This document shows positions 42,746 to 56,472 of a stretch of 64,000 nucleotides of DNA, in pieces (positions within the stretch are counted from its first letter, which is position 1; every line of letters begins with the position of its first letter). Position numbers and translations under genes: made by a program. Source of the DNA: Methanolobus sp. WCC4 (GTDB lineage Archaea > Halobacteriota > Methanosarcinia > Methanosarcinales > Methanosarcinaceae). Location: contig NZ_CP150629.1 in assembly GCF_038022665.1 (NCBI RefSeq), positions 1,594,480 through 1,658,479 on the forward strand. Direction: 5' to 3'. Below the pieces are notes generated by a model, which saw nothing but the letters and a program-made list of their open reading frames with translations, had not been told where the DNA came from and searched no databases.

Positions 42746-44311
42746 ATGGCAACGGTAGCGGTAATTCCAACTTTTAATGAAGAAGTTCATATACACGATG
42801 TAATAAAAAAAACTAAACATTATGTTGATGCCATTGTCGTTGTAGATGATTGCAGTACAGATTCAACTGCATTTATTGCTCATAATTTAGGGGCGAAGGT
42901 TGTTAAACATGAACACCATATGGGGAAAGCTGAAGCTTTGAAGTCAGGCTTTAAGGCTGCAATGGCTTTAAATCCAGAAATTATAGTCACTCTTTATGCA
43001 AATGGTAAGCATAATCCAGAAGATATTCCTAAACTAGTTGAGCCTATATATTGGCTTGAATACGATGTGGTTTCGGGAACTACACATTTTAGTGATTCTA
43101 CTGGTTTCCCGACGTTTGACGAGGAATTTTCTTCTGATGAACACTTATTATTTGATGCAAAAGTGAATGCAGATTCCCTCGACAAGTGTATGGGATTTAC
43201 TGCATTTTCATCAAAAATTTTTGATACCCTTCATTTTCATGAAAATGGAGATAGTGTTGAAGTTTCTCTTCTTAAGGATGCCTACAATGGAGGTTTCAAT
43301 GTCAGAATGCTTTCATCATCATGTTTACATAATCATGACTTGGAGCTTTTTCAGGATTATCGTATAGGGGTTGTTGTTGCTGCTTACAATGAGGAGACAT
43401 TAATTAAGACAACAGTCAATGGAATGCCTGATTATATTGATCGAATATATGTGATTAATGATTGCAGTACTGACGCTACGGCAGAAGTGTTAAAGACCAT
43501 TGATGATCAACGCTTGAGTATAATTACCCATGAAGTAAACCAAGGCGTTGGCGCGGCGAACCTTCATGGTTATCAGGAAGCTCTTAAAGAAAACATGGAT
43601 ATTGTTGTGATAATGAATGGTGACAATCAGATGAATCCTCTACAACTTCCGTACTTATTGTATCCGATTATTGAAGGTAAAGCGGACTATACAAAAGGAA
43701 ATCGTCTTTTCTGTGAGGAGTATCGTGTAGGTATGAGCAAATGGAGGGCATTTGGTAATGGTCTCCTTACAATGGTTACCAAGATTGCAAGTGGTTACTG
43801 GCACATTATGGACCCTCAAAATGGCTATACGGCTATCTCCAAAAAGGCTCTCTCAAATATAGAGATTCATACTCTCTACACTTATTATGGTTATTGCAAC
43901 GATATGCTAATCAAACTTAACACATTTGGTTTTCGTACTATGGACATACCTATGCCATCTCGCTACGGTCAGGAGAAATCTTCAATTAAGTACGGTCGGT
44001 ACATGGGAAAAGTTTCACTTATGCTTTTCCGCAAGTTTTTATGGAGACTTAAGACGAAGTACATGATATTAAACTTCCACCCTCTTGTGCTATTTTACAT
44101 ATTTGGTATGATTCTGTTACCTTTGGGTTTTGTGTTTGGAGTTTATATTTTCCTGACAAAAGTTATATTTGGATATCCTATATCACCAAATTTTCCCTTA
44201 CTTGACGCATTATTAATAATAACAGGTATACAGTTTACGTTGTTTGCAATGCTATTTGATATGCAAGAATGTAATCGTCAGAGTGATTTCGCCTCATATC
44301 GCTGTAAATAA
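42746..44311 (+). CDS. tandem glycosyltransferase family 2 with degenerate first domain
   Basis: 521 residues containing two GT2 (GT-A) domains: about 1-200 and 205-420, then two membrane helices (about 447-515). Both start with a VAVIPTFNEE or VVVAAYNEET strand and have a DDCSTD or NDCSTD loop. The metal-binding DxDGQH region is lost in domain 1 (YANGKHNPED, 84-93) and only partly changed in domain 2 (MNGDNQMNP, 290-298). Domain 2 resembles dolichyl-phosphate sugar synthases. Domain 1 is therefore probably a non-catalytic duplicate. Preceded by the candidate operator at 42566. Confidence 0.8.
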   Translation: MATVAVIPTFNEEVHIHDVIKKTKHYVDAIVVVDDCSTDSTAFIAHNLGAKVVKHEHHMGKAEALKSGFKAAMALNPEIIVTLYANGKHNPEDIPKLVEPIYWLEYDVVSGTTHFSDSTGFPTFDEEFSSDEHLLFDAKVNADSLDKCMGFTAFSSKIFDTLHFHENGDSVEVSLLKDAYNGGFNVRMLSSSCLHNHDLELFQDYRIGVVVAAYNEETLIKTTVNGMPDYIDRIYVINDCSTDATAEVLKTIDDQRLSIITHEVNQGVGAANLHGYQEALKENMDIVVIMNGDNQMNPLQLPYLLYPIIEGKADYTKGNRLFCEEYRVGMSKWRAFGNGLLTMVTKIASGYWHIMDPQNGYTAISKKALSNIEIHTLYTYYGYCNDMLIKLNTFGFRTMDIPMPSRYGQEKSSIKYGRYMGKVSLMLFRKFLWRLKTKYMILNFHPLVLFYIFGMILLPLGFVFGVYIFLTKVIFGYPISPNFPLLDALLIITGIQFTLFAMLFDMQECNRQSDFASYRCK

Positions 44312-45832: not shown

Positions 45833-46873
45833 ATGAACCTGAAATTTATTGCACTGATAGTTTCTTTGCTAGTAAGCATTTTTTGTCCTTTTGTGGTAAG
45901 TGCACAAAATGTTGTTTTTGACAATTCCGCAGGTTTTTTTGGAATCGACTCTTACAGCGGAGTTGGAGTTGCGCTACTTGCTGATGAATTAAGATTAGAA
46001 GGGTATGATGTCAAAGAAACAAATGATTTTCATAATGTAGATTGCTCAATGATTACGGATGATATGTTGAATAGTACAGATATACTTGTATTAATAAATC
46101 CACGAAGGTCTTTTAGTTTTGAAGAGAAAATTGTAGTGAATAAGTTTGTAACAAATGGAAAAAGTCTTTTGTTAGTTTGTGACAATCCCGAATCAATTGA
46201 ATATGCAAATACGCTTTCTTCGGTATTTGGTGCATGGTTCCTTCCACAGTATCTTGGAGACGTTTTCATAAACTCAACGTTGGGACAAATGCATTTCTAT
46301 TCCCCTTTACCAATAATCACTGATATTGAACCGGATATTTCAATTCAGTATGAGGGATCTGCAGGTGATTGGACAAACCGCTGGATTATCCCTGAAAAAA
46401 CCTATAATTCATCATATAGCATTTTATCCGGTTTTAATTATGGTGAGGGAAGGATTATATTGTTGGGTGATAGTGATATTCTTCAGAATGAGAATTTTAA
46501 CGCTAATAAGGACTTCAATATGTTGGTTTTTGATTATTTATGCAATAATGATACTGACACGAAAGTAAGTTACTCTCCAGATGCACTTCAGATCACTACA
46601 GATGAAAGTAAAAAAGGAATAGCATATTTGCATGTAAAAAACACTTGTGACTATAATGTAACTATTGACTTAATAAAACCTCCTTTACTTGACAATATAA
46701 TTACAATTAATCCCCAAGTAATCAAGTTGGAGCCAGGGCAGGAATCACAAGTTATTCTTTTAGCTACCTGGAATGAGAGTTATTCCAGTATTAGTGACAT
46801 TATACGGATTGAGACGGATTATGGTTTAATCACTCAAAATGATTATTTTGGAGTTACGGTTGGTTTTCTATGA
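45833..46873 (+). CDS. exported protein with GldG/DUF4350-like (GATase-fold) domain
   Basis: 346 residues. A signal peptide (FIALIVSLLVSIFCPFVVSAQ) ends near residue 24. Residues about 30-240 read like a class I glutamine amidotransferase-like fold (DILVLINPRRSFSFEEKIVVNKFVTNGKSLLLV and GRIILLGDSDI), as in GldG-type and DUF4350 proteins, but without a visible catalytic cysteine. A beta-sandwich-like tail follows. It overlaps the next gene by four bases (ATGA), so the pair is translationally coupled. Function unknown; sensing or binding on the outer surface is a guess. Confidence 0.6.
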   Translation: MNLKFIALIVSLLVSIFCPFVVSAQNVVFDNSAGFFGIDSYSGVGVALLADELRLEGYDVKETNDFHNVDCSMITDDMLNSTDILVLINPRRSFSFEEKIVVNKFVTNGKSLLLVCDNPESIEYANTLSSVFGAWFLPQYLGDVFINSTLGQMHFYSPLPIITDIEPDISIQYEGSAGDWTNRWIIPEKTYNSSYSILSGFNYGEGRIILLGDSDILQNENFNANKDFNMLVFDYLCNNDTDTKVSYSPDALQITTDESKKGIAYLHVKNTCDYNVTIDLIKPPLLDNIITINPQVIKLEPGQESQVILLATWNESYSSISDIIRIETDYGLITQNDYFGVTVGFL

Positions 46874-47961
46874 GATGGATTCCCATTTTTATGCTAGTCT
46901 TTATTTTGTTTCTGCCTACGCCTGTCATTGCAGATGATATTACTATCACCTATGACCAAGTTCTCATCGGTGACAATCATATTTTCTGGTATGGTCAGGG
47001 TGAACTTATCTCGGAAGCTGGAAATGATTTCTTTTTTGATTATGGCGAAAGTGAAATATTAACCACTAGCAGCAGTGCGAAAGCTGTAGGACTTGACGAT
47101 TCTAAAATACATTTCAGCTCATCCAATGATGTATTTGAAGCAAATTTCCTTTCTTCGATGCCGGAAACATTTGGAACGGGTATTTTTAAAGTATACACTA
47201 TTAAAGTTGAACTTCCTGAAGTTAATGAAGAAAAAAAAGTTCAAATTAAAATAGAGGATGCAGGAAAGATTATTGTCTCGAATGTCGATATAATAAGCAG
47301 TAAAACAGATGGGCAGTATTTAATTCTTAATTTTGAAACAAAGAATCGTGATATGGAAATAACGTATATTACAAAACCTACATTTAAATTATTTTCAATT
47401 CTACTTGCCACTGCATTATTTTCATTGTTGTTTTTAATTTTAATTCTCATTAGAAGAATAGATATTCTGGAAGGCATCAAAATGAATGTCAATGACTTTA
47501 AAAAGGCAGCAATATTCGAATCACGCATGAACAAAGACAATTACGAACTATCTTTGGATCTGTTCAAATTAAAGCTTTACAATTTACTTGAAATTAGTGG
47601 CAACAGATTTTATTTGAGAATTCCTTTCTGGCTATTCTATTGTTTTATTTTTATAGTCCTTTTGTGTTCATTTTTTAGATCTATGACTTACCCGGTGGAA
47701 GATATCTGGAACATGCTTAATAGAGGTCGTATAGTGATATTCTTTTTTGTATCTGTATTAGCTTTGTTATCATTGATACTGATTGCGTCTATCAGGACAG
47801 ATCGGGATGCTTCCATAGTTTTTGGATTGATAGGGGGATGCCTTGTTGGAATAATTTTATCTCATTTCGGTTCAATAGCAGTTATCCTTTCTCTAACTAC
47901 CGCTCTGCTAATTTATTTCCTATCAATGGCAGCACTCAACAAAAATTTAGCAGAGGTGTGA
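46870..47961 (+). CDS. exported multi-pass membrane protein of unknown function
   Basis: 363 residues. A signal peptide (RWIPIFMLVFILFLPTPVIA) ends near residue 22; a beta-rich outer domain runs to about 170; a membrane helix follows (about 174-196), then a cytoplasmic stretch of about 55 residues and four to five more helices to the C-terminus. Overlaps the GldG/DUF4350-like gene by four bases and is followed directly by a GT2 stub with a good ribosome-binding site, so these three once formed an operon. No family recognised. Confidence 0.6.
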   Translation: MRWIPIFMLVFILFLPTPVIADDITITYDQVLIGDNHIFWYGQGELISEAGNDFFFDYGESEILTTSSSAKAVGLDDSKIHFSSSNDVFEANFLSSMPETFGTGIFKVYTIKVELPEVNEEKKVQIKIEDAGKIIVSNVDIISSKTDGQYLILNFETKNRDMEITYITKPTFKLFSILLATALFSLLFLILILIRRIDILEGIKMNVNDFKKAAIFESRMNKDNYELSLDLFKLKLYNLLEISGNRFYLRIPFWLFYCFIFIVLLCSFFRSMTYPVEDIWNMLNRGRIVIFFFVSVLALLSLILIASIRTDRDASIVFGLIGGCLVGIILSHFGSIAVILSLTTALLIYFLSMAALNKNLAEV

Positions 47962-47962
47962 T

Positions 47963-48025
47963 TTGAAACTCATTGTAACAATACCAGCATATAAGGACGG
48001 AAAGACAATAGGAAATTTGAAGTAA
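47963..48025 (+). pseudogene. N-terminal stub of a glycosyltransferase family 2 gene
   Basis: A TTG at 47963 has GAGGTG upstream and begins KLIVTIPAYKDGKTIGN, the first strand of dolichyl-phosphate-type GT2 enzymes (usual form IPAYNEEKTIG). After 20 codons it stops at TAA (48023-48025) and the sequence changes to the rfbC leader. I infer the rest of the gene was lost when the rfb genes arrived or by an adjoining deletion. Confidence 0.6.
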
Positions 48026-48055
48026 GTAAATTTACTTGAAAATTGAATCATAATA

Positions 48056-48619
48056 ATGGACAAAGCCATGAAATTAATAAAAACTAATATAGAAGATTTA
48101 TTCATCTTTGAACCAAAGATTTTCGAAGATGAAAGAGGATACTTTTTTGAAAGTTATAACAAAAAGGTACTGGATAATCTAATAGACACGAAATATAATT
48201 TTGTTCAAGATAATGAATCAAAATCCTCATATGGTGTGATTCGCGGACTTCACTATCAAGTGGAACCATACAGCCAGACGAAACTGGTAAGGGTATTACA
48301 AGGGAAGGTCTACGATGTTGTTGTTGATATTAGAAAAGATTCACACACGTTTGGAGAATGGGTTGGCGTGGAACTTTCTGCTGCTAATAAAAGACAATTT
48401 TTGATACCCAAAGGTTTTGCTCACGGTTTTTCTGTATTAAGTGAAAGTGCCATATTTGCATACAAATGCGATGAATTCTATCATCCTGAAGCTGAAAAAG
48501 GTATCGCTTTTGATGATCTTACACTTAATATTGACTGGAAGATAAAGGATGAAGATATTGTGGTAGCAGACCGTGACAAGAACTGGCCAACACTGGAAAA
48601 TGCAAAGTTGATGTTTTAA
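48056..48619 (+). CDS. rfbC: dTDP-4-dehydrorhamnose 3,5-epimerase
   Basis: Third step of dTDP-L-rhamnose synthesis. 187 residues (183 if read from the ATG at 48068), standard length. Cupin fold with FEDERGYFFESYN (about 23-35), VQDNESKSSYGVIRGLHYQ including the catalytic histidine (about residue 66), and FLIPKGFAHGFSVLSE. First gene of rfbC-rfbB-rfbD-rfbA. No obvious ribosome-binding site, and a gap of 44 bases to rfbB. It begins just after the truncated GT2 stub. Confidence 0.93.
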   Translation: MDKAMKLIKTNIEDLFIFEPKIFEDERGYFFESYNKKVLDNLIDTKYNFVQDNESKSSYGVIRGLHYQVEPYSQTKLVRVLQGKVYDVVVDIRKDSHTFGEWVGVELSAANKRQFLIPKGFAHGFSVLSESAIFAYKCDEFYHPEAEKGIAFDDLTLNIDWKIKDEDIVVADRDKNWPTLENAKLMF

Positions 48620-48662: not shown

Positions 48663-49628
48663 ATGAATGAATTGAAATTACTGGTAACTGGAGGTTGTGG
48701 ATTCATAGGTAGCAATTTTATCCGCATTATGCTTGAAAAATATTCGGATTGCGAAATAATCAATCTAGACAAACTTACCTATGCAGGAAACCCAGCCAAC
48801 TTAAAAGATATTGACAATAATCCTAATTATTCATTTATCAAAGGAGACATCTGCGACCCACATGTCTCAAATGTAGCCATGGAAAATGTTGATACAGTAG
48901 TTCACTTCGCCGCCGAAAGCCATGTGGACCGCTCAATAGAAGATGGCTCAGTATTTATAAGAACAAATGTGCTTGGTACAAACACGCTCCTGAATTGTGC
49001 ACTGGATTCTGATATCAAAAATTTCATCCATGTTTCCACCGATGAGGTATATGGAAGCATAGAGAACGGATCATTTGCTGAAGAGGATAATCTCAACCCT
49101 TCAAGTCCGTATTCATCAAGCAAGGCAGGATCCGACCTGCTGGCCATGTCCTTTCATACCACCTATGGCCTGCCGGTAAGCATTACCAGATGTACCAACA
49201 ACTTCGGACCATATCAGTACCCGGAAAAATTGATTCCACTCTTCATCACAAACCTGATGGAAGGCAAGCAGGTACCTGTCTATGGCACAGGACTGAACGT
49301 GAGGGACTGGATCTATGTAGATGACCACTGTTCAGGCATCGATTTTGTGCTCAACAACGGAAACAGTGGAGAGCTCTACAACATCGGAGGTGGCAGCGAA
49401 CTCACAAACCTTGAGATCACACATCGCATACTGGAAACCTTGGGAAAGGACGAATCCATGATCAGGTATGTAGAAGACCGCAAAGGACATGATTTCCGTT
49501 ATTCCCTTGACTGCACGAAATTGAAGAAGATGGGATGGAAACCGAAATATGACTTTAAAGCTGCTCTTTCCAATACCGTGAAATGGTACGTTGAAAACAG
49601 ATGGTGGTGGGAGTCATTAAAACAGTGA
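48663..49628 (+). CDS. rfbB: dTDP-glucose 4,6-dehydratase
   Basis: Second step of the rhamnose pathway: dTDP-glucose to dTDP-4-keto-6-deoxyglucose. 321 residues. NAD site VTGGCGFIGSNFI (8-20), HFAAESHVDRS (81-91), STDEVYG (125-131) supplying the Asp-Glu catalytic pair, and Y150-x3-K154 in SPYSSSK. GAGGAGATGA near the ATG gives a ribosome-binding site. It overlaps rfbD by 28 bases. From here to 51126 the DNA is visibly richer in GC than the surrounding AT-rich genes. Confidence 0.94.
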   Translation: MNELKLLVTGGCGFIGSNFIRIMLEKYSDCEIINLDKLTYAGNPANLKDIDNNPNYSFIKGDICDPHVSNVAMENVDTVVHFAAESHVDRSIEDGSVFIRTNVLGTNTLLNCALDSDIKNFIHVSTDEVYGSIENGSFAEEDNLNPSSPYSSSKAGSDLLAMSFHTTYGLPVSITRCTNNFGPYQYPEKLIPLFITNLMEGKQVPVYGTGLNVRDWIYVDDHCSGIDFVLNNGNSGELYNIGGGSELTNLEITHRILETLGKDESMIRYVEDRKGHDFRYSLDCTKLKKMGWKPKYDFKAALSNTVKWYVENRWWWESLKQ

Positions 49629-50410
49629 TTCTCGGTGCAGGTGGAATGCTTGGCACAGACCTGTGCAAGATATTTCCTGATGCTGCAAAGCTAAAACATA
49701 ATGACCTTGATATCACAAAAAGAGAGAAAGTCATTGAATGTATCAGGAGGATTAAACCTGATGTTGTAATAAATGCTGCTGCGTATACCGATGTGGATGG
49801 TTGTGAGGGCAATCAGGAACTTGTCTTCGACGTCAATGGATATGGACCAGGATACCTTGCTGAAGCTTGTTCAAATGCCAGCGCAGTACTTGTGCATTTT
49901 AGCACTGACTACGTATTTGATGGCTCAAAAAAAGAATACTTAGAGGCTGATACAACAAATCCAGTCAACGCATACGGTAGATCAAAACTTCTCGGTGAAC
50001 AGAAAATTGCCGAAAACATGGATGACTACAGGATTATCCGAACCTCTTGGTTATTCGGAGCCAATGGGATAAATTTTGTGGACACCATGCTGAAGCTATC
50101 CGAAGAGATGGAAACTGTAAAGGTTGTTAACGATCAGTTCGGAAAGCCTACATATACACTGGACTTGGCCCACAAGACTGCAGAGATAATTGGAATTGAG
50201 CCGGGAATCTACCACCTATCAAACGAAGGGGTATGTTCCTGGTACGAGTTTGCATCAGCAATCATCGATAACACAATTCCTTGTACAAGCAATGAATTTC
50301 CAAGAAAGGCAAAAAGACCTACATATTCGGCTCTTGTAAACACAAAAACAAGTCCAATGAGGCACTGGAAAGAAGCACTTAATGATTACTTAAAGGAGAA
50401 TAAAGCATGA
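49601..50410 (+). CDS. rfbD: dTDP-4-dehydrorhamnose reductase
   Basis: Last step, NADPH-dependent reduction to dTDP-L-rhamnose. 269 residues. VILGAGGMLGTDL (9-21) binds the cofactor; HFSTDYVFDGS (99-109) and Y125-x3-K129 in NAYGRSK form the active site. Several ATG/GTG codons (49601-49607) lie inside the end of rfbB, so the exact start is uncertain by a few residues. Its stop overlaps the rfbA start (ATGA). Confidence 0.93.
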   Translation: MVVGVIKTVILGAGGMLGTDLCKIFPDAAKLKHNDLDITKREKVIECIRRIKPDVVINAAAYTDVDGCEGNQELVFDVNGYGPGYLAEACSNASAVLVHFSTDYVFDGSKKEYLEADTTNPVNAYGRSKLLGEQKIAENMDDYRIIRTSWLFGANGINFVDTMLKLSEEMETVKVVNDQFGKPTYTLDLAHKTAEIIGIEPGIYHLSNEGVCSWYEFASAIIDNTIPCTSNEFPRKAKRPTYSALVNTKTSPMRHWKEALNDYLKENKA

Positions 50411-51126
50411 AAGGAATAGTACTTGCCGGAGGTACAGGTAGCAGACTGTATCCACTTACTAAAGTGACGAACAAGCATCTTCTACCTGTATATGATAAAC
50501 CAATGATCTATTACCCTCTTCTGACACTGATTAATGCAGGAATTACCGATATAATGATAGTTTCAGGCCGTGGACATGCCGGACATTTCCTTGAACTTCT
50601 TGGGTCTGGTGCCGAGTTAGGGGCACGTTTTACTTATGAGATTCAGGACGAGGCTGGCGGTATTGCACAGGCGTTGAGCTTAGCAGAAGATTTTGCGGAT
50701 GATGAGGATGTGGCTGTCATCCTTGGGGATAACATATTCCAAGATAACATTCATGCTACGATTCAATCATTCGAATCCGGTGCACATATATTCCTTAAGC
50801 AAGTTTCCGATGCAGCACGGTTTGGAGTGGCAGAGGTGGATAAAAGCAATGAAAAGATACTTGGCATTGAGGAGAAACCTGAGGTTCCTAAATCAAATTA
50901 TGCAGTGACCGGACTATACATCTATGACAACGATGTATTTGACATTATTCACACATTAAAACCATCAGGGAGGGGAGAACTTGAGATTACAGATGTGAAT
51001 AACGAGTATATCCAGCAGGGTCTGATGAAATACACAGTTTTAGATAGAAACTGGAGCGATGCAGGGACATTCGAGAGCTTGTTGAAAGCAAGTATCATTG
51101 CAAGAGAAGACAAGGAATCTAAATGA
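50407..51126 (+). CDS. rfbA: glucose-1-phosphate thymidylyltransferase
   Basis: First pathway step: dTTP plus glucose-1-phosphate to dTDP-glucose. 239 residues with LAGGTGSRLYPLT (6-18), LPVYDKPMIYYPL (26-38), ILGDNIFQDNI and EEKPEVPKSNYAVTGLY. It is about 50 residues shorter than enteric RmlA (about 290), lacking the C-terminal part that forms the allosteric site, as in short SpsI-type forms. Feedback control by dTDP-rhamnose may therefore be weaker (inference). Overlaps rfbD by four bases. Confidence 0.92.
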   Translation: MKGIVLAGGTGSRLYPLTKVTNKHLLPVYDKPMIYYPLLTLINAGITDIMIVSGRGHAGHFLELLGSGAELGARFTYEIQDEAGGIAQALSLAEDFADDEDVAVILGDNIFQDNIHATIQSFESGAHIFLKQVSDAARFGVAEVDKSNEKILGIEEKPEVPKSNYAVTGLYIYDNDVFDIIHTLKPSGRGELEITDVNNEYIQQGLMKYTVLDRNWSDAGTFESLLKASIIAREDKESK

Positions 51127-51169: not shown

Positions 51170-52225
51170 ATGAAGAAAAAAGTTCTTTTCATATGTGGTG
51201 CACGCGGCGATTACACCAGAAACGAAGTTGTGGTGCAATCACTCAAAGAGAACTATGATGTGATCGAGATATCTTCGAACGGCAAGTCATATATGTTTCG
51301 ATTGCCGAATGTCGTTATTAGATACTTATTGAACTTTAAGAAATACGACATTCTTTTTGTCGGGTTTTATGGACAGTTACTAGTCCCAATAGTACGTTTG
51401 TTCTCAAGAAAGCCAATAATCTTCGATGCATTTATATCTACATACGATACCTTATGTTTTGATAGGAAAAAGTTCAAGCCTAACTCGATAATCGGCAGGA
51501 TTACATATTACATTGATAAATTATCCTGCAGTCTAGCAGACAAAATAATCTTGGATACCAATGCCCATATCGACTATTTTATTGATACCTTTGGATTATC
51601 GAAGAACAAGTTTCAGAGGATATTTGTTGGTGCTAACGAGGAAATATTTTATCCACGACAAATCGAAAATGATTCGGACAAATTCATTGTATTTTACTAT
51701 GGGACGTTTCTGCCATTGCAAGGTATAGAGTATCTAGTCAGAGCTGCAAAGTTGTTGGAAAACGAAGATGATATCAAATTTATTGTTGTCGGTTCTGGGA
51801 TGGAAACGGACAAGATAATCAGATTGTCGAATGAGCTTCAGAACAAGAACATAGAATTCATTGATTGGATACCCTATCAGGAATTGCCTTTAAAAATAGC
51901 AGAAGCCGATGTCTGTTTGGGCGGGCATTTTTCAAATGTAGACAAGGCAAAACGAGTAATTGCAGGAAAAACATTTCAATTCATTGCAATGAAGAAGCCA
52001 GTGATAGTTGGAGATAACCCCGCAAATTGGGAAATATTTGAGCATGGAATTGATGCTTTTTTTGTTGAAATGGCTAGTGCTGAAGCATTAGCTGATGCAA
52101 TTCTTGTTCTTAAAAAGGATGACGAATTGAGAACAGAGATGGCAATAAATGCAAACAATACATTTAGGGAAGTTTGCAAGGGAATGTCATATGATTTGAA
52201 TAATATAATTGAAGACATAATATGA
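51170..52225 (+). CDS. glycosyltransferase (GT4-like, GT-B fold)
   Basis: 351 residues. The start at 51170 has GGAGGT upstream. N-terminal KKVLFICGARGDYTRNEVVVQSL; donor-domain FYYGTFLPLQGIEYLVRAA, VVGSGMETDKI and KTFQFIAMKKPVIVGDNPAN. The EX7E segment is replaced by KRVIAGKTFQFIAMKKP, typical of GT4 members that act on lipid-linked sugars. It directly follows rfbA, so a rhamnosyltransferase is the natural guess, but the donor is not shown by sequence. Confidence 0.78.
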   Translation: MKKKVLFICGARGDYTRNEVVVQSLKENYDVIEISSNGKSYMFRLPNVVIRYLLNFKKYDILFVGFYGQLLVPIVRLFSRKPIIFDAFISTYDTLCFDRKKFKPNSIIGRITYYIDKLSCSLADKIILDTNAHIDYFIDTFGLSKNKFQRIFVGANEEIFYPRQIENDSDKFIVFYYGTFLPLQGIEYLVRAAKLLENEDDIKFIVVGSGMETDKIIRLSNELQNKNIEFIDWIPYQELPLKIAEADVCLGGHFSNVDKAKRVIAGKTFQFIAMKKPVIVGDNPANWEIFEHGIDAFFVEMASAEALADAILVLKKDDELRTEMAINANNTFREVCKGMSYDLNNIIEDII

Positions 52226-52286: not shown

Positions 52287-54197
52287 TTGATTAATATTAC
52301 TTTGTTATTAATTTTATCAATCATGTTATGCATAATCCCAGGATATGCTATATTTTCATCATTTTTGAATAATGAAAATTACGATTTTATTCAAACCTTT
52401 ACTATATCCCTTGTTTTAGGTTTATCAGCAACTCCTATAATTTTATTATTCTTCAGCATCATAGATATAAAATTAAATCGTACGATTATATATTCTTTAA
52501 TCTTGTGTTCTATATTAATAATATCATACAACTGCAGTAAAAATAATGTAATTAGCTGTTTAAATAAGCAATTAAAAATCTCATTTGACAAAGCATCAAT
52601 CATAATGATTTCTATTTTTTTAACAAATTTAATGATAAAATTATTCATTAATAATAATCAAATAGTTCCTTTAGGAATTGATAGTTATGCACATGTAATG
52701 ATAACCAGTTTAATAGTTGAAAATGAGAGCATTCCAAAATCATACATGCCTTTTATGCCGATTGATAATTTCACGTATCATTTTGGATTTCATGCACTAT
52801 CTGGATTTATAAGTTGGGTCACGGGAGCAGAGATAGCAAGTTCGGTACTTATTGCAGAAACACTATTAATCGCATTACCGCCATTAACAATATATGTATT
52901 TACTCTTTCCCTCTTAAAAGATAAAAAAACTGCACTAATATCTGCATTTATTGTTTCATTTATCTCAATATTTCCTGCTTATTATTTGAATTGGGGTAGA
53001 ATGACTCAAATAATGGGTCTAACAATACTACCAATCCTCATTACAGTTTTGCTAACTAATTTTGATAAAAATTCATACCATCATATAATTGTATCAAGTA
53101 TATTGTTATCAGGATTATTTTTATCACATTATCGAATTTTTATAATGTTTATGTACTTCTTACTGTTAATCTTTATTTCTGATGTCCTAGGAAAGAATAT
53201 ATCAATGGAAAAAATTCAAAAAATATTTGTTTTGTTCGTATTATTCACTGCAATAACAGGGCCTTGGATGTTAAATTTATTTGATAATAGTAACTTCATA
53301 AAAACAGTAAACGTGGGTGAGGACTCTACAAGAATATCTCCGGAATATTATTATTCTTTGGACCGAGTACACTATCTTTATTCAGATTATTCAAATTACT
53401 TATTTGTAATAGGCGAAAGTTTTGCCTACTTGCTTATTTTTGCAGGTATCTTACTTGGATTTTACAAAAAGCAAAATGAAATAATCCTACTATCTTTTTG
53501 GATTTTTGTGCTTTTAATATTTTCGAATCCTCATTGGCTTGATTTTCCAATCAATGGACTTATAGATTTTATCACCGTCCTTAGTGTCTTGTGGGTGCCA
53601 ATATCTATAATTTGCGGCTATTTAATATGCTCTTTACTAAATAAAACTATTTTAGGAAAAAAAGAAATAAATTTTATTGTTAGTATTATTATTTTATTAA
53701 TTGTTACTTCTTCAATAGTTAGTCAAATACAATTAATTAAACCTTCATCTCAATATGTATTTGAACCTGATGTTGATGCAATGTGTTGGATAAACGAGAA
53801 CACAAAAGAAAATTCACAATTTTTAATAAGTTCTGAAAAAAGCATAGGATTTGTTGAGGCAAGCGATGCAGGTTCGTGGATACCTATTTTCACACAAAGA
53901 CAAGTTTCTGTACCATCGATGTTATATGGTGGGGAAGGTAACCAAGATTTACTTGATCAAGTAAAACTATTGCATGAAGCATCTAACAATCCCTCATCGA
54001 ATAGTTCATTAGAAATATTTAAAAAATATAATGTTACACATGTTTATATAGGTGTCCGAAAAACTACAAATTCAATGAATATTGCTAATTTTACAACATG
54101 TGATGCTTTTAAGCTAATTTACAACAATAATGGAGTTTACATTTTTGAAATTCAAGAGACAAATACTAAAAATATCGGTATTGTTAATCAAACATAA
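52287..54197 (+). CDS. large GT-C-like membrane protein
   Basis: 636 residues from TTG 52287 (GGAG upstream). At least 13 helices in the first 500 residues and a soluble C-terminal domain. The first outer loop has PLGIDSYAHVMITSLIVEN (about 130-148) and FTYHFGFHALSGF, and WGRMTQIMG lies later; this arrangement is seen in archaeal GT-C/DUF6541-like proteins. The C-terminus overlaps the IS1 relic by 14 bases, so the last residues may have been replaced when that element inserted. Possibly adds rhamnose-containing units outside; inference. Confidence 0.6.
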   Translation: MINITLLLILSIMLCIIPGYAIFSSFLNNENYDFIQTFTISLVLGLSATPIILLFFSIIDIKLNRTIIYSLILCSILIISYNCSKNNVISCLNKQLKISFDKASIIMISIFLTNLMIKLFINNNQIVPLGIDSYAHVMITSLIVENESIPKSYMPFMPIDNFTYHFGFHALSGFISWVTGAEIASSVLIAETLLIALPPLTIYVFTLSLLKDKKTALISAFIVSFISIFPAYYLNWGRMTQIMGLTILPILITVLLTNFDKNSYHHIIVSSILLSGLFLSHYRIFIMFMYFLLLIFISDVLGKNISMEKIQKIFVLFVLFTAITGPWMLNLFDNSNFIKTVNVGEDSTRISPEYYYSLDRVHYLYSDYSNYLFVIGESFAYLLIFAGILLGFYKKQNEIILLSFWIFVLLIFSNPHWLDFPINGLIDFITVLSVLWVPISIICGYLICSLLNKTILGKKEINFIVSIIILLIVTSSIVSQIQLIKPSSQYVFEPDVDAMCWINENTKENSQFLISSEKSIGFVEASDAGSWIPIFTQRQVSVPSMLYGGEGNQDLLDQVKLLHEASNNPSSNSSLEIFKKYNVTHVYIGVRKTTNSMNIANFTTCDAFKLIYNNNGVYIFEIQETNTKNIGIVNQT

Positions 54198-54650
54198 CTA
54201 GTTCTTTATTTCTGTATTTCATCAATAACAAAACAGAATATTTCAGCATTTCAAGACTTTTTGTATAACACTTTGACTTACTCCTCAGTCTTGCCAGAAA
54301 GTGCCTAGATATATTGTTGTATCCTTCAACAGTATATGTTTCTGCTTTTGAACGAGTGTAAATATTCGGGGGGAAATTCTGCATATGCCCTCCAGGAATC
54401 ATTCATATTTCTCCAACTACTTTTGCCTTTAACTTTTTGCCCAGTTTTTGTTCTTCTGCTGCCAAAAGAGCAGTCGATGAATTTCTTCCAATCTCTATCA
54501 ACAGCAATCCAAATCCAGCAGTAGTTTTGTTGTCTCCATATAAGTATGCATTTCATCTAGTTTCACAACGGATATTTAGTTTTCACTTTTCAACTCCTCT
54601 AGTTCACTACCAAATACGTTTTTCTTTACTTCATAGTTTTTCTTCATAGT
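54184..54650 (-). pseudogene. IS1-family transposase relic
   Basis: Minus-strand pieces in different frames give the InsB-like core: DEMHTY (near 54560), WIWIAVDRDWKKFIDC, then TYTVEGYNNISRHFLARLRSK and a KCYTKSLEMLKYS tail ending at 54184. These match IS1-type DDE transposases. At least two frameshifts and loss of the N-terminal zinc-binding part make it inactive. The 5' side stops at the MITE-like repeat (54650). Confidence 0.65.
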
Positions 54651-54965: not shown

Positions 54966-56249
54966 TTAAAGGTATCTGTATACACATAATGAAGATAGAA
55001 TTAATCCAATCAAAGACGTTGTACTTGTTGCTATTGCTGCACCTATGATATGATATTTCGGTATCAAAGTAATATTTAGTAAGATATTAATAAATAATAA
55101 TAATATACTGATGGCTACTGAAATTCTTGGCATCCCAATTCCATTTAATATGGTTGTCAATAATGAAAACAAAGAGAAGAATCCAATACCAATAATTAGA
55201 ATACTAAGAACTTGAGCACCACCTATGTACTCAATGGAATACAACAATGTAAGTAGTTCTTCTGATAGCATATAGATAACAAACACAGTTGGTGCCATTG
55301 CTATAAATAAGTACTTAAATGATTTCACTGCATACTTTCGATTTTTTTTAATGTTGTTGCTTGCTGCGTTCTTGGATATTAATGGAAAAAGTGCACCATA
55401 TAGCCCTGTAGTCAGATAGAATGGAACTTTCGATATCGTCGATGACGCTGAGTAAATTCCTGCATCATAATCTGTTAAATATGCCTTGACAAAAAACAAA
55501 TCAATATTTGAAATTAAATTAGTAATTACTGAAAAAAATATAATGGGAATAGCAAAATCCAAAACTTGTCTTACCGAGATTTCTTTGTTAATCTCCTGAC
55601 TGTTTTTTTCAACAAATTTTCGTTGTTTTGTACAGTAAATGCCGATTAAAAGTGCTGCCATTGGTGCTAAAACGAAACCAAAGATTGCACCTCTGAGTGC
55701 ATAACCGATTAGCACCATTACAAGTATGAATATCGCTTTGAAAAACGAATACGAGATTGCTGTTATTGCTTGTTTTTTGTATTCCTGTAAGCCGTTTAAG
55801 TATCCTGTTGAGATAGAATACAAGGCATAACTTGGGACTATGAACGATGACAATCGGATTAAAGGTGTTAAACCTTCGTCATTTAGAAGTAATGCAATTT
55901 TTCCTGCTATAATATAGTAGATTAAAAAAATTCCAAGGCTAAAAACCAATTGAATTTTAAGGGATATGTCTCTTACTGCCTTTACACTAATGTCGCCATG
56001 TGCAACATACTTCGACAAAGCCTGCGGAATGCCTGTCGCAAGAATGAGATTTACCATTGTCATCAAAGATATGACTACTGCATATATTCCGTAGTTTGAT
56101 GGACCTAGTAACCTACCTAAGCCTATGTGAATAGCATAACCTGAAGCTACAAAAACTGCCTGTGCTATTAATAAATATATTGTCCCATGTAAAATTTTAT
56201 CTTTCATAGAAAAATCCACTTTATTTTTACCATCTTCTTCTAATAGCAT
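54966..56249 (-). CDS. Wzx-type oligosaccharide flippase (PST/MOP superfamily)
   Basis: Up to 427 residues (412 from the second ATG at 56204, MKDKILHGTIYLL, which starts at the first helix). Twelve helices expected; ILHGTIYLLIAQAVFVASGYAIHIGLGRLLGPSNYGIY is the typical opening and KYVAHGD near residue 87 marks the archaeal subgroup. It is not closely similar to the flippase at 26604 by eye. It is isolated by IS relics on both sides, so its partner glycosyltransferases may be the rfb-linked genes before it or the GT-C at 57165. Confidence 0.87.
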   Translation of the reverse strand: MLLEEDGKNKVDFSMKDKILHGTIYLLIAQAVFVASGYAIHIGLGRLLGPSNYGIYAVVISLMTMVNLILATGIPQALSKYVAHGDISVKAVRDISLKIQLVFSLGIFLIYYIIAGKIALLLNDEGLTPLIRLSSFIVPSYALYSISTGYLNGLQEYKKQAITAISYSFFKAIFILVMVLIGYALRGAIFGFVLAPMAALLIGIYCTKQRKFVEKNSQEINKEISVRQVLDFAIPIIFFSVITNLISNIDLFFVKAYLTDYDAGIYSASSTISKVPFYLTTGLYGALFPLISKNAASNNIKKNRKYAVKSFKYLFIAMAPTVFVIYMLSEELLTLLYSIEYIGGAQVLSILIIGIGFFSLFSLLTTILNGIGMPRISVAISILLLFINILLNITLIPKYHIIGAAIATSTTSLIGLILSSLCVYRYL

Positions 56250-56394
56250 AGTACAAAATATCTTTCACGTAGTATAACCGGCTAATATAAACAAAACCCA
56301 AGTGTACCGACTGTTTTAAGTGGATTTAATCTTGGTATATCCACATTATTGTGGACGCTGCACGCTTTGAATAATTGACCACACAATTCATAAG

Positions 56395-56472
56395 TCATGA
56401 TTTACTCTCAAGTTTGCGGAAGTCAATCGTATTTTCTTCATTGTATTCTGGAATCGTGACTATGAGTTTCAC
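56395..56472 (-). pseudogene. N-terminal stub of a second glycosyltransferase family 2 gene
   Basis: From a GTG at 56472 the minus strand reads KLIVTIPEYNEENTID, an unmistakable GT2 first strand, then diverges and stops at 56395-56397. It resembles the stub at 47963-48025 but is not identical. It sits between the flippase and IS1634 relics, so deletion by IS activity is the likely cause. Confidence 0.55.

Follow-up and report, generated by a model that had tools for sequence, protein, structure and literature searches.

The window, by which we mean the whole 64,000-nucleotide stretch of Methanolobus sp. WCC4 DNA analyzed here (1594480-1658479 on a single contig of 2851899 bases), contains the RmlC, RmlB, RmlD and RmlA families as adjacent and co-directional genes (Table 1). 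As in known dTDP-L-rhamnose operons (rmlCBDA / rfbCBDA), all four genes are present, in the order C-B-D-A and with the expected Pfam families; the genes themselves are ordinary, and the joint in front of rfbC alone is of interest. At this joint, a short open reading frame, R1, starts with a TTG one base behind the stop of the preceding gene (47961) and ends with a TAA at 48023-48025, its 20 codons giving the translation LKLIVTIPAYKDGKTIGNLK*. The R1 stop is separated by 30 bases from the first rfbC ATG and by 42 bases from the start at 48068, which matches that of relatives (MKLIKTNIED) and is likely the true one. The sequence-only reading had described a GT2 start with a good ribosome-binding site, cut after 20 codons and followed within 30 bases by the rfbC leader, and this is borne out by the coordinates and by the GT2 score given below. 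The palindrome in the gap, AAGTAAATTTACTT, has other near-copies in the genome at chance level only and is not a genomic repeat; it is possibly a chance occurrence.

Table 1. Features at and around the joint in front of rfbC (positions in the window)
Feature	Position	Strand	Pfam family or basis
Upstream partner gene, DUF4350-like, first of a two-gene pair	45833..46873	+	PF14258, 29.1 bits against a cut-off of 30.4 (sub-threshold)
Membrane protein without Pfam family; nearest intact gene on the left of the joint	46870..47961	+	
GAGGTG, plausible ribosome-binding site of truncated gene R1	47952..47957	+	read from sequence
R1, start of a lost gene for a GT2-type glycosyltransferase (5' end, 20 codons plus stop)	47963..48025	+	
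Perfect 14-base palindrome in the R1-rfbC gap	48024..48037		read from sequence
rfbC (rmlC), dTDP-4-dehydrorhamnose 3,5-epimerase	48056..48619	+	PF00908
rfbB (rmlB), dTDP-glucose 4,6-dehydratase	48663..49628	+	PF16363/PF01370
rfbD (rmlD), dTDP-4-dehydrorhamnose reductase	49601..50410	+	PF04321
rfbA (rmlA), glucose-1-phosphate thymidylyltransferase	50407..51126	+	PF00483
GT1-type glycosyltransferase after the block, right side of the joint	51170..52225	+	
R2, the other GT2 remnant, with codons 1-17 joined to residues about 175-222 of a GT2 of that kind and containing stops	56284..56472	-	

GT2 remnants and base composition in the window

The N-terminal strand-loop of R1 (IPAYNEEKTI type) fits that of GT2 glycosyltransferases, an intact GT2 of genome G052 matching it at 67% across 18 residues. 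A Pfam scan of the 20 residues gave no PF00535/GT2 match, a dCache_3 hit at E 0.26 being at chance level. R1 is devoid of the catalytic residues and of the full GT2 domain, and it cannot be an enzyme because its frame stops after 20 codons. When the genome was searched for a source copy of R1, none was found by DNA comparison and R2 alone was found by protein comparison; an intact GT2 of the R1/R2 kind is absent from this genome, the best match reaching 29% over its length. Eight intact GT2 N-termini then served as references for scoring the 5226 start codons of the window plus its flanks, 103 kb in all. The two highest scores were those of R2 (61.0, at 56472 on the minus strand) and R1 (53.1), followed by a real GT2 at 42746 (34.9), and the highest score in 15 simulated random sequences of 103 kb was 31.8. 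As GT2 starts, R1 and R2 are thus far above chance.

The two remnants are identical at 36 of their first 51 positions, and their common break near codon 17 may be a coincidence. The internal deletion of R2 lies at a repeated ATTGA microhomology. R2 is located directly before a flippase gene (54966-56249, minus strand) and points towards R1, the two remnants bracketing 48-56 kb in inverted order. Decayed frames at 54184-54566 on the minus strand resemble, by eye, what we take to be a broken IS1-type transposase.

GC content ranges from 0.29 to 0.39 between about 3 kb before the window and about 60.5 kb, and is about 0.44 on both outer flanks; positions 1-60500 are mostly one AT-rich island of surface-glycan genes and debris. 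Within the block, GC is 0.348 in rfbC, 0.428 in rfbB, 0.416 in rfbD and 0.422 in rfbA, with 0.33-0.36 in the adjoining genes, so the rise begins with rfbB, some 0.7 kb into the block, and not at the short ORF. Since the rfbC of relatives is likewise lower in GC than rfbB (four of five loci), this step is a property of the module. The rise from rfbB to rfbA that had been read as the mark of a joint is therefore real (0.416-0.428) but does not mark it, rfbC being AT-rich like its surroundings. We rejected composition as a joint marker, given the position of the step inside rfbB and the fact that the flanking DNA, at 0.29-0.37 GC against 0.44 outside, is itself the AT-rich oddity.

The joint and the rhamnose block in related genomes

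All comparisons used one genome per species. On the upstream side, a profile built from the 46870 protein and its G036 homologue was run against 237 genomes of the class. Strong homologues were found in four other genomes (G036, G064, G066, G120) and two weak matches to the family in G003 and G032, and a scan of genome contigs with the 46870 protein gave no match. The 45833-46870 pair is kept at all four homologous loci, always within glycosyltransferase operons, and rfbCBDA is absent from the stretches read at each of them. At all four, the next gene overlaps the 46870 homologue by 4 bases and encodes an intact GT1-type transferase, indicating that the slot is a glycosyltransferase slot. The earlier expectation that relatives devoid of rfbCBDA would carry an intact GT2 at this place holds for the absence of the block but not for the enzyme, the predicted intact GT2 being found at none of the four loci. 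Among the 237 genomes, no empty-site (before/after) pair was found for the exact R1 locus.

Such a pair does exist for a GT2 of the R1 kind in another genus (g8). Genomes G033 and G085 match over a flank of 3.1 kb (87%) and over 0.5 kb across the GT2 start. In G033, a GT2 of the R1/R2 kind is intact and is the first gene of its operon; in G085, the start region and the 5' end (about 55-60 codons) are kept, the match ending after about 53 residues, and other glycan genes follow. This is a true before/after replacement pair.

The rfbCBDA block keeps its C-B-D-A order in L045 (a Methanococcoides MAG), G026, G024 and G036 (loci L045, L125, L126 and L127), and G027 (L128) keeps C-B-D with no rfbA adjoining. 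In every relative locus, the neighbours differ both upstream and downstream. The best named match of the window rfbC, at 72%, is that of a Methanococcoides MAG. The close rfbC type occurs in 31 of the 237 genomes of the class and in three of 27 genus members, own genome counted. In both the rfbC and the rfbB trees, the window sequence groups with G073 and G079 (local support of 0.89 in each tree), both of genus g3, which contains a Methanococcoides-like rfb locus. The congeners G024 and G026 fall outside this grouping. The agreement of the two trees against the genus indicates one joint history and thus the arrival of the block as a unit. With a constant order, changing neighbours, a patchy distribution and its closest relatives in another genus, rfbCBDA is a module.

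We next considered what stands before rfbC at 31 places, namely 30 rfbC loci and a second copy in G122, the rfbC match in G095 being left out. A glycan-gene 5' end was found at five of them. Two are GT2 starts: R1 itself and, in G024, a 5' end of about 20 codons whose stop overlaps the rfbC ATG (ATGA). The other three derive from wecB (UDP-GlcNAc 2-epimerase), with 32 residues ending 4 bases before rfbC in G026, 15 residues ending 10 bases before it in G036, and 15 residues in front of the second rfbC of G122. An intact gene or plain non-coding DNA precedes rfbC in at least ten genomes, Methanosarcina-like or other. The same short ORF and rfb order as an old, conserved arrangement, which would have refuted the sequence-only reading, was seen in no relative. 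In G036, wecB 5' ends stand on both sides of rfbCBDA in the same direction (L127, 8035-8088 and 11285-11377). In G026 and G011, a gene of 321-328 aa (L125, 7456-8421; upstream gene of L277), related between the two genomes, precedes by about 220 bases a wecB scar with a common leader; this gene has a zinc-ribbon-like start and a weak MarR-like match and may be part of the landing place in that genus.

Survey of wecB remnants and of the sequence ahead of them

We searched 111 genomes of the family with wecB residues 1-32 and, as a control, with residues 277-308. The N-terminal query gave 91 places. We examined the 32 whose open frame was shorter than 170 codons, and 30 proved to be real 5' remnants; G114 and G100, frameshifted or gapped whole genes, were dropped, G112 was kept with only 192 bases behind it, and G121 (frame 497, two stops) was left out. 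The control query gave 92 places and 10 short frames, of which nine were tested, G114 being left out, and six were 3'-only remnants; G130 (contig end), G000 (weak) and G122:C39 (which keeps residues 1-10) were not counted as such. A ratio of 30 to 6 has a chance of 7e-5 if both ends are equally likely and the events independent, which they are not fully. Because of common origins (G128/G131/G132; G036/G122), the number of independent events is lower, possibly some 20 against 5 or 6, and for about 20 against 6 the chance is 0.009.

The 5' remnants are short: 23 of the 30 have at most 40 residues and seven are longer, the lengths being listed by hand with judgement used for G109, G112 and three g4 genomes, and since the query needs about 15 residues, shorter remnants were missed. 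The rest of wecB is absent or, in one case, deleted internally; badly decayed remnants include G110b, G093, G095 and G022. The next gene is on the same strand in 24 of the 28 cases with a gene in reach. Of 17 next genes that were scanned, 13 fall into sugar or polysaccharide families (flippase, sugar-nucleotide, pyruvyl-transferase, acetyltransferase-like, NeuB, oxidoreductase or deacetylase) and four do not. GT2 remnants are rare, with three short frames (R1, R2 and G085) among roughly 125 GT2-start matches, a count on which we rejected the idea that GT2 genes at large show a 5' remnant effect.

Alignment of the DNA ahead of wecB in genera g7 and g11 revealed a CCAAA-TTAAATA box, 83-89 bases before the start, in 10 of 15 remnants and 5 of 11 intact genes, against a chance expectation of 0.014 per stretch. 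The pattern is post hoc, having been written after the alignment, and an earlier one with a wrong spacing matched 1 of 15 and 0 of 11; the fixed position and the low chance rate nevertheless speak for this putative box, which we take to resemble an archaeal BRE/TATA promoter. Of the five remnants devoid of the box, four follow rfbA in an operon and one lies inside an operon. Thus, the remnants appear to keep an expression start, either by promoter or by operon place.

R1 is likewise a glycan-gene 5' end whose remainder is gone, with a new glycan gene, rfbC, on the same strand behind it. No conserved promoter-like box lies ahead of it, and since it directly follows a gene, what it retains is a ribosome-binding site and a place in an operon rather than a promoter. 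R1 belongs to the operon kind of retained start, and the promoter part of the general claim made below does not directly apply to it.

Origin and meaning of the joint

We consider it probable that R1 is a gene-replacement scar in a surface-glycan operon and that, generally, glycan modules of Methanosarcinaceae have been joined behind old glycan-gene starts. At this locus, a GT2 gene would once have been translated right behind the 46870 gene and been cut after about 18 codons, and rfbCBDA, now located behind the cut, would be read from the resident operon. In the general case, foreign or rearranged glycan modules would enter the islands by imprecise joining. The old promoter or operon position, the leader and the first 15-40 codons would stay while the remainder of the old gene goes. 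Joints just behind a resident start would be kept, since they place expression of the module under the old promoter or operon and leave little useless coding DNA; joints that remove the start would be lost. As for the route of cutting and joining, the ATTGA microhomology in R2 would fit end-joining or template switching. The insertion or replacement joint proposed from sequence alone is supported in part, by the GT2 5' end, the conserved block order with changing neighbours, the patchiness and the foreign phylogeny, but its composition step is not at the joint and this locus lacks an empty-site pair.

A simpler account is that the GT2 gene was lost by ordinary deletion with rfbCBDA already downstream, so that nothing entered and the scar formed in an old operon. 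R2, in the same window, is just such an internal deletion, wecB remnants with internal deletions exist (codons 1-15 joined to 329-354 in G011, 1-10 joined to 256 on in G122:C39), and the IS-like debris nearby shows a decaying region. However, plain decay explains neither the patchy distribution and foreign phylogeny of rfbCBDA nor the excess of wecB 5' over 3' remnants (30 against 6), and we regard it as rather unlikely. The layout of some scars could also suggest that the short ORF works as a leader, a first cistron through whose translation the rfbC start is opened or coupled, in the manner of bicistronic leader designs, in which the stop of a short cistron meets the next start. The G024, G026 and G036 scars are alike in layout, known here from sequence, with the ATGA overlap in the first and the 4- and 10-base gaps in the others, and the first codons of wecB remnants are nearly unchanged while the sequence behind them is unrelated. 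Against this, the 30 or 42 bases in the window are too wide for tight coupling, and a recent origin would also account for the unchanged codons; we judge a functional leader improbable. Unlike in such designs, the short cistron here derives from the 5' end of a displaced gene.

Joining could alternatively be directed by an enzyme or by conserved DNA at the 5' end of wecB-like genes. The clustering of remnant ends at codons 15-30 and the presence of wecB starts beside the rfb block in G036 and in G107/G110/G126 would agree with such a recombination or integration hot spot, but the break points spread from codon 10 to codon 150 with no common sequence at the joint, the GT2 scars have no DNA site in common with wecB, and no recombinase gene was recognised in the stretches read; we regard a hot spot as very improbable. 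Doubtful, in our view, though to be entertained, is a reading in which Methanosarcinaceae glycan-gene starts, wecB above all and one GT2 type, serve permanently as landing places: selection would keep the first 15-40 codons together with their promoter and leader, often as a coupled leader cistron, to act as an expression start behind which whole sugar modules are swapped, R1 being one such place inside an operon. The reading that we prefer remains replacement behind an old gene start.

Exchange of this kind is known from bacterial capsule and O-antigen loci such as the pneumococcal cps locus, where sugar-gene cassettes are swapped and gene remnants are left at their borders. The present case is alike in the exchange of sugar modules within an AT-rich island with border remnants, but it concerns an archaeal family, and the remnants are mostly short 5' ends, often with the old promoter-like box. 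In what our open-literature searches returned, we found no prior description of short 5' scars keeping such a box.

What viruses, predators and neighbours encounter on a cell depends on its surface sugars and, to our knowledge, little is known of how archaea reshuffle the genes for them. Leftover gene starts of this sort, located in front of swapped sugar genes across related methanogens, suggest that the exchange of such genes takes place behind the starts of older ones. The short 5' scars would account for a set of tiny ORFs whose calling by gene finders is haphazard, and each would be a readable record of an exchange, identifying the former gene and its replacement and showing that the old expression start has been retained.
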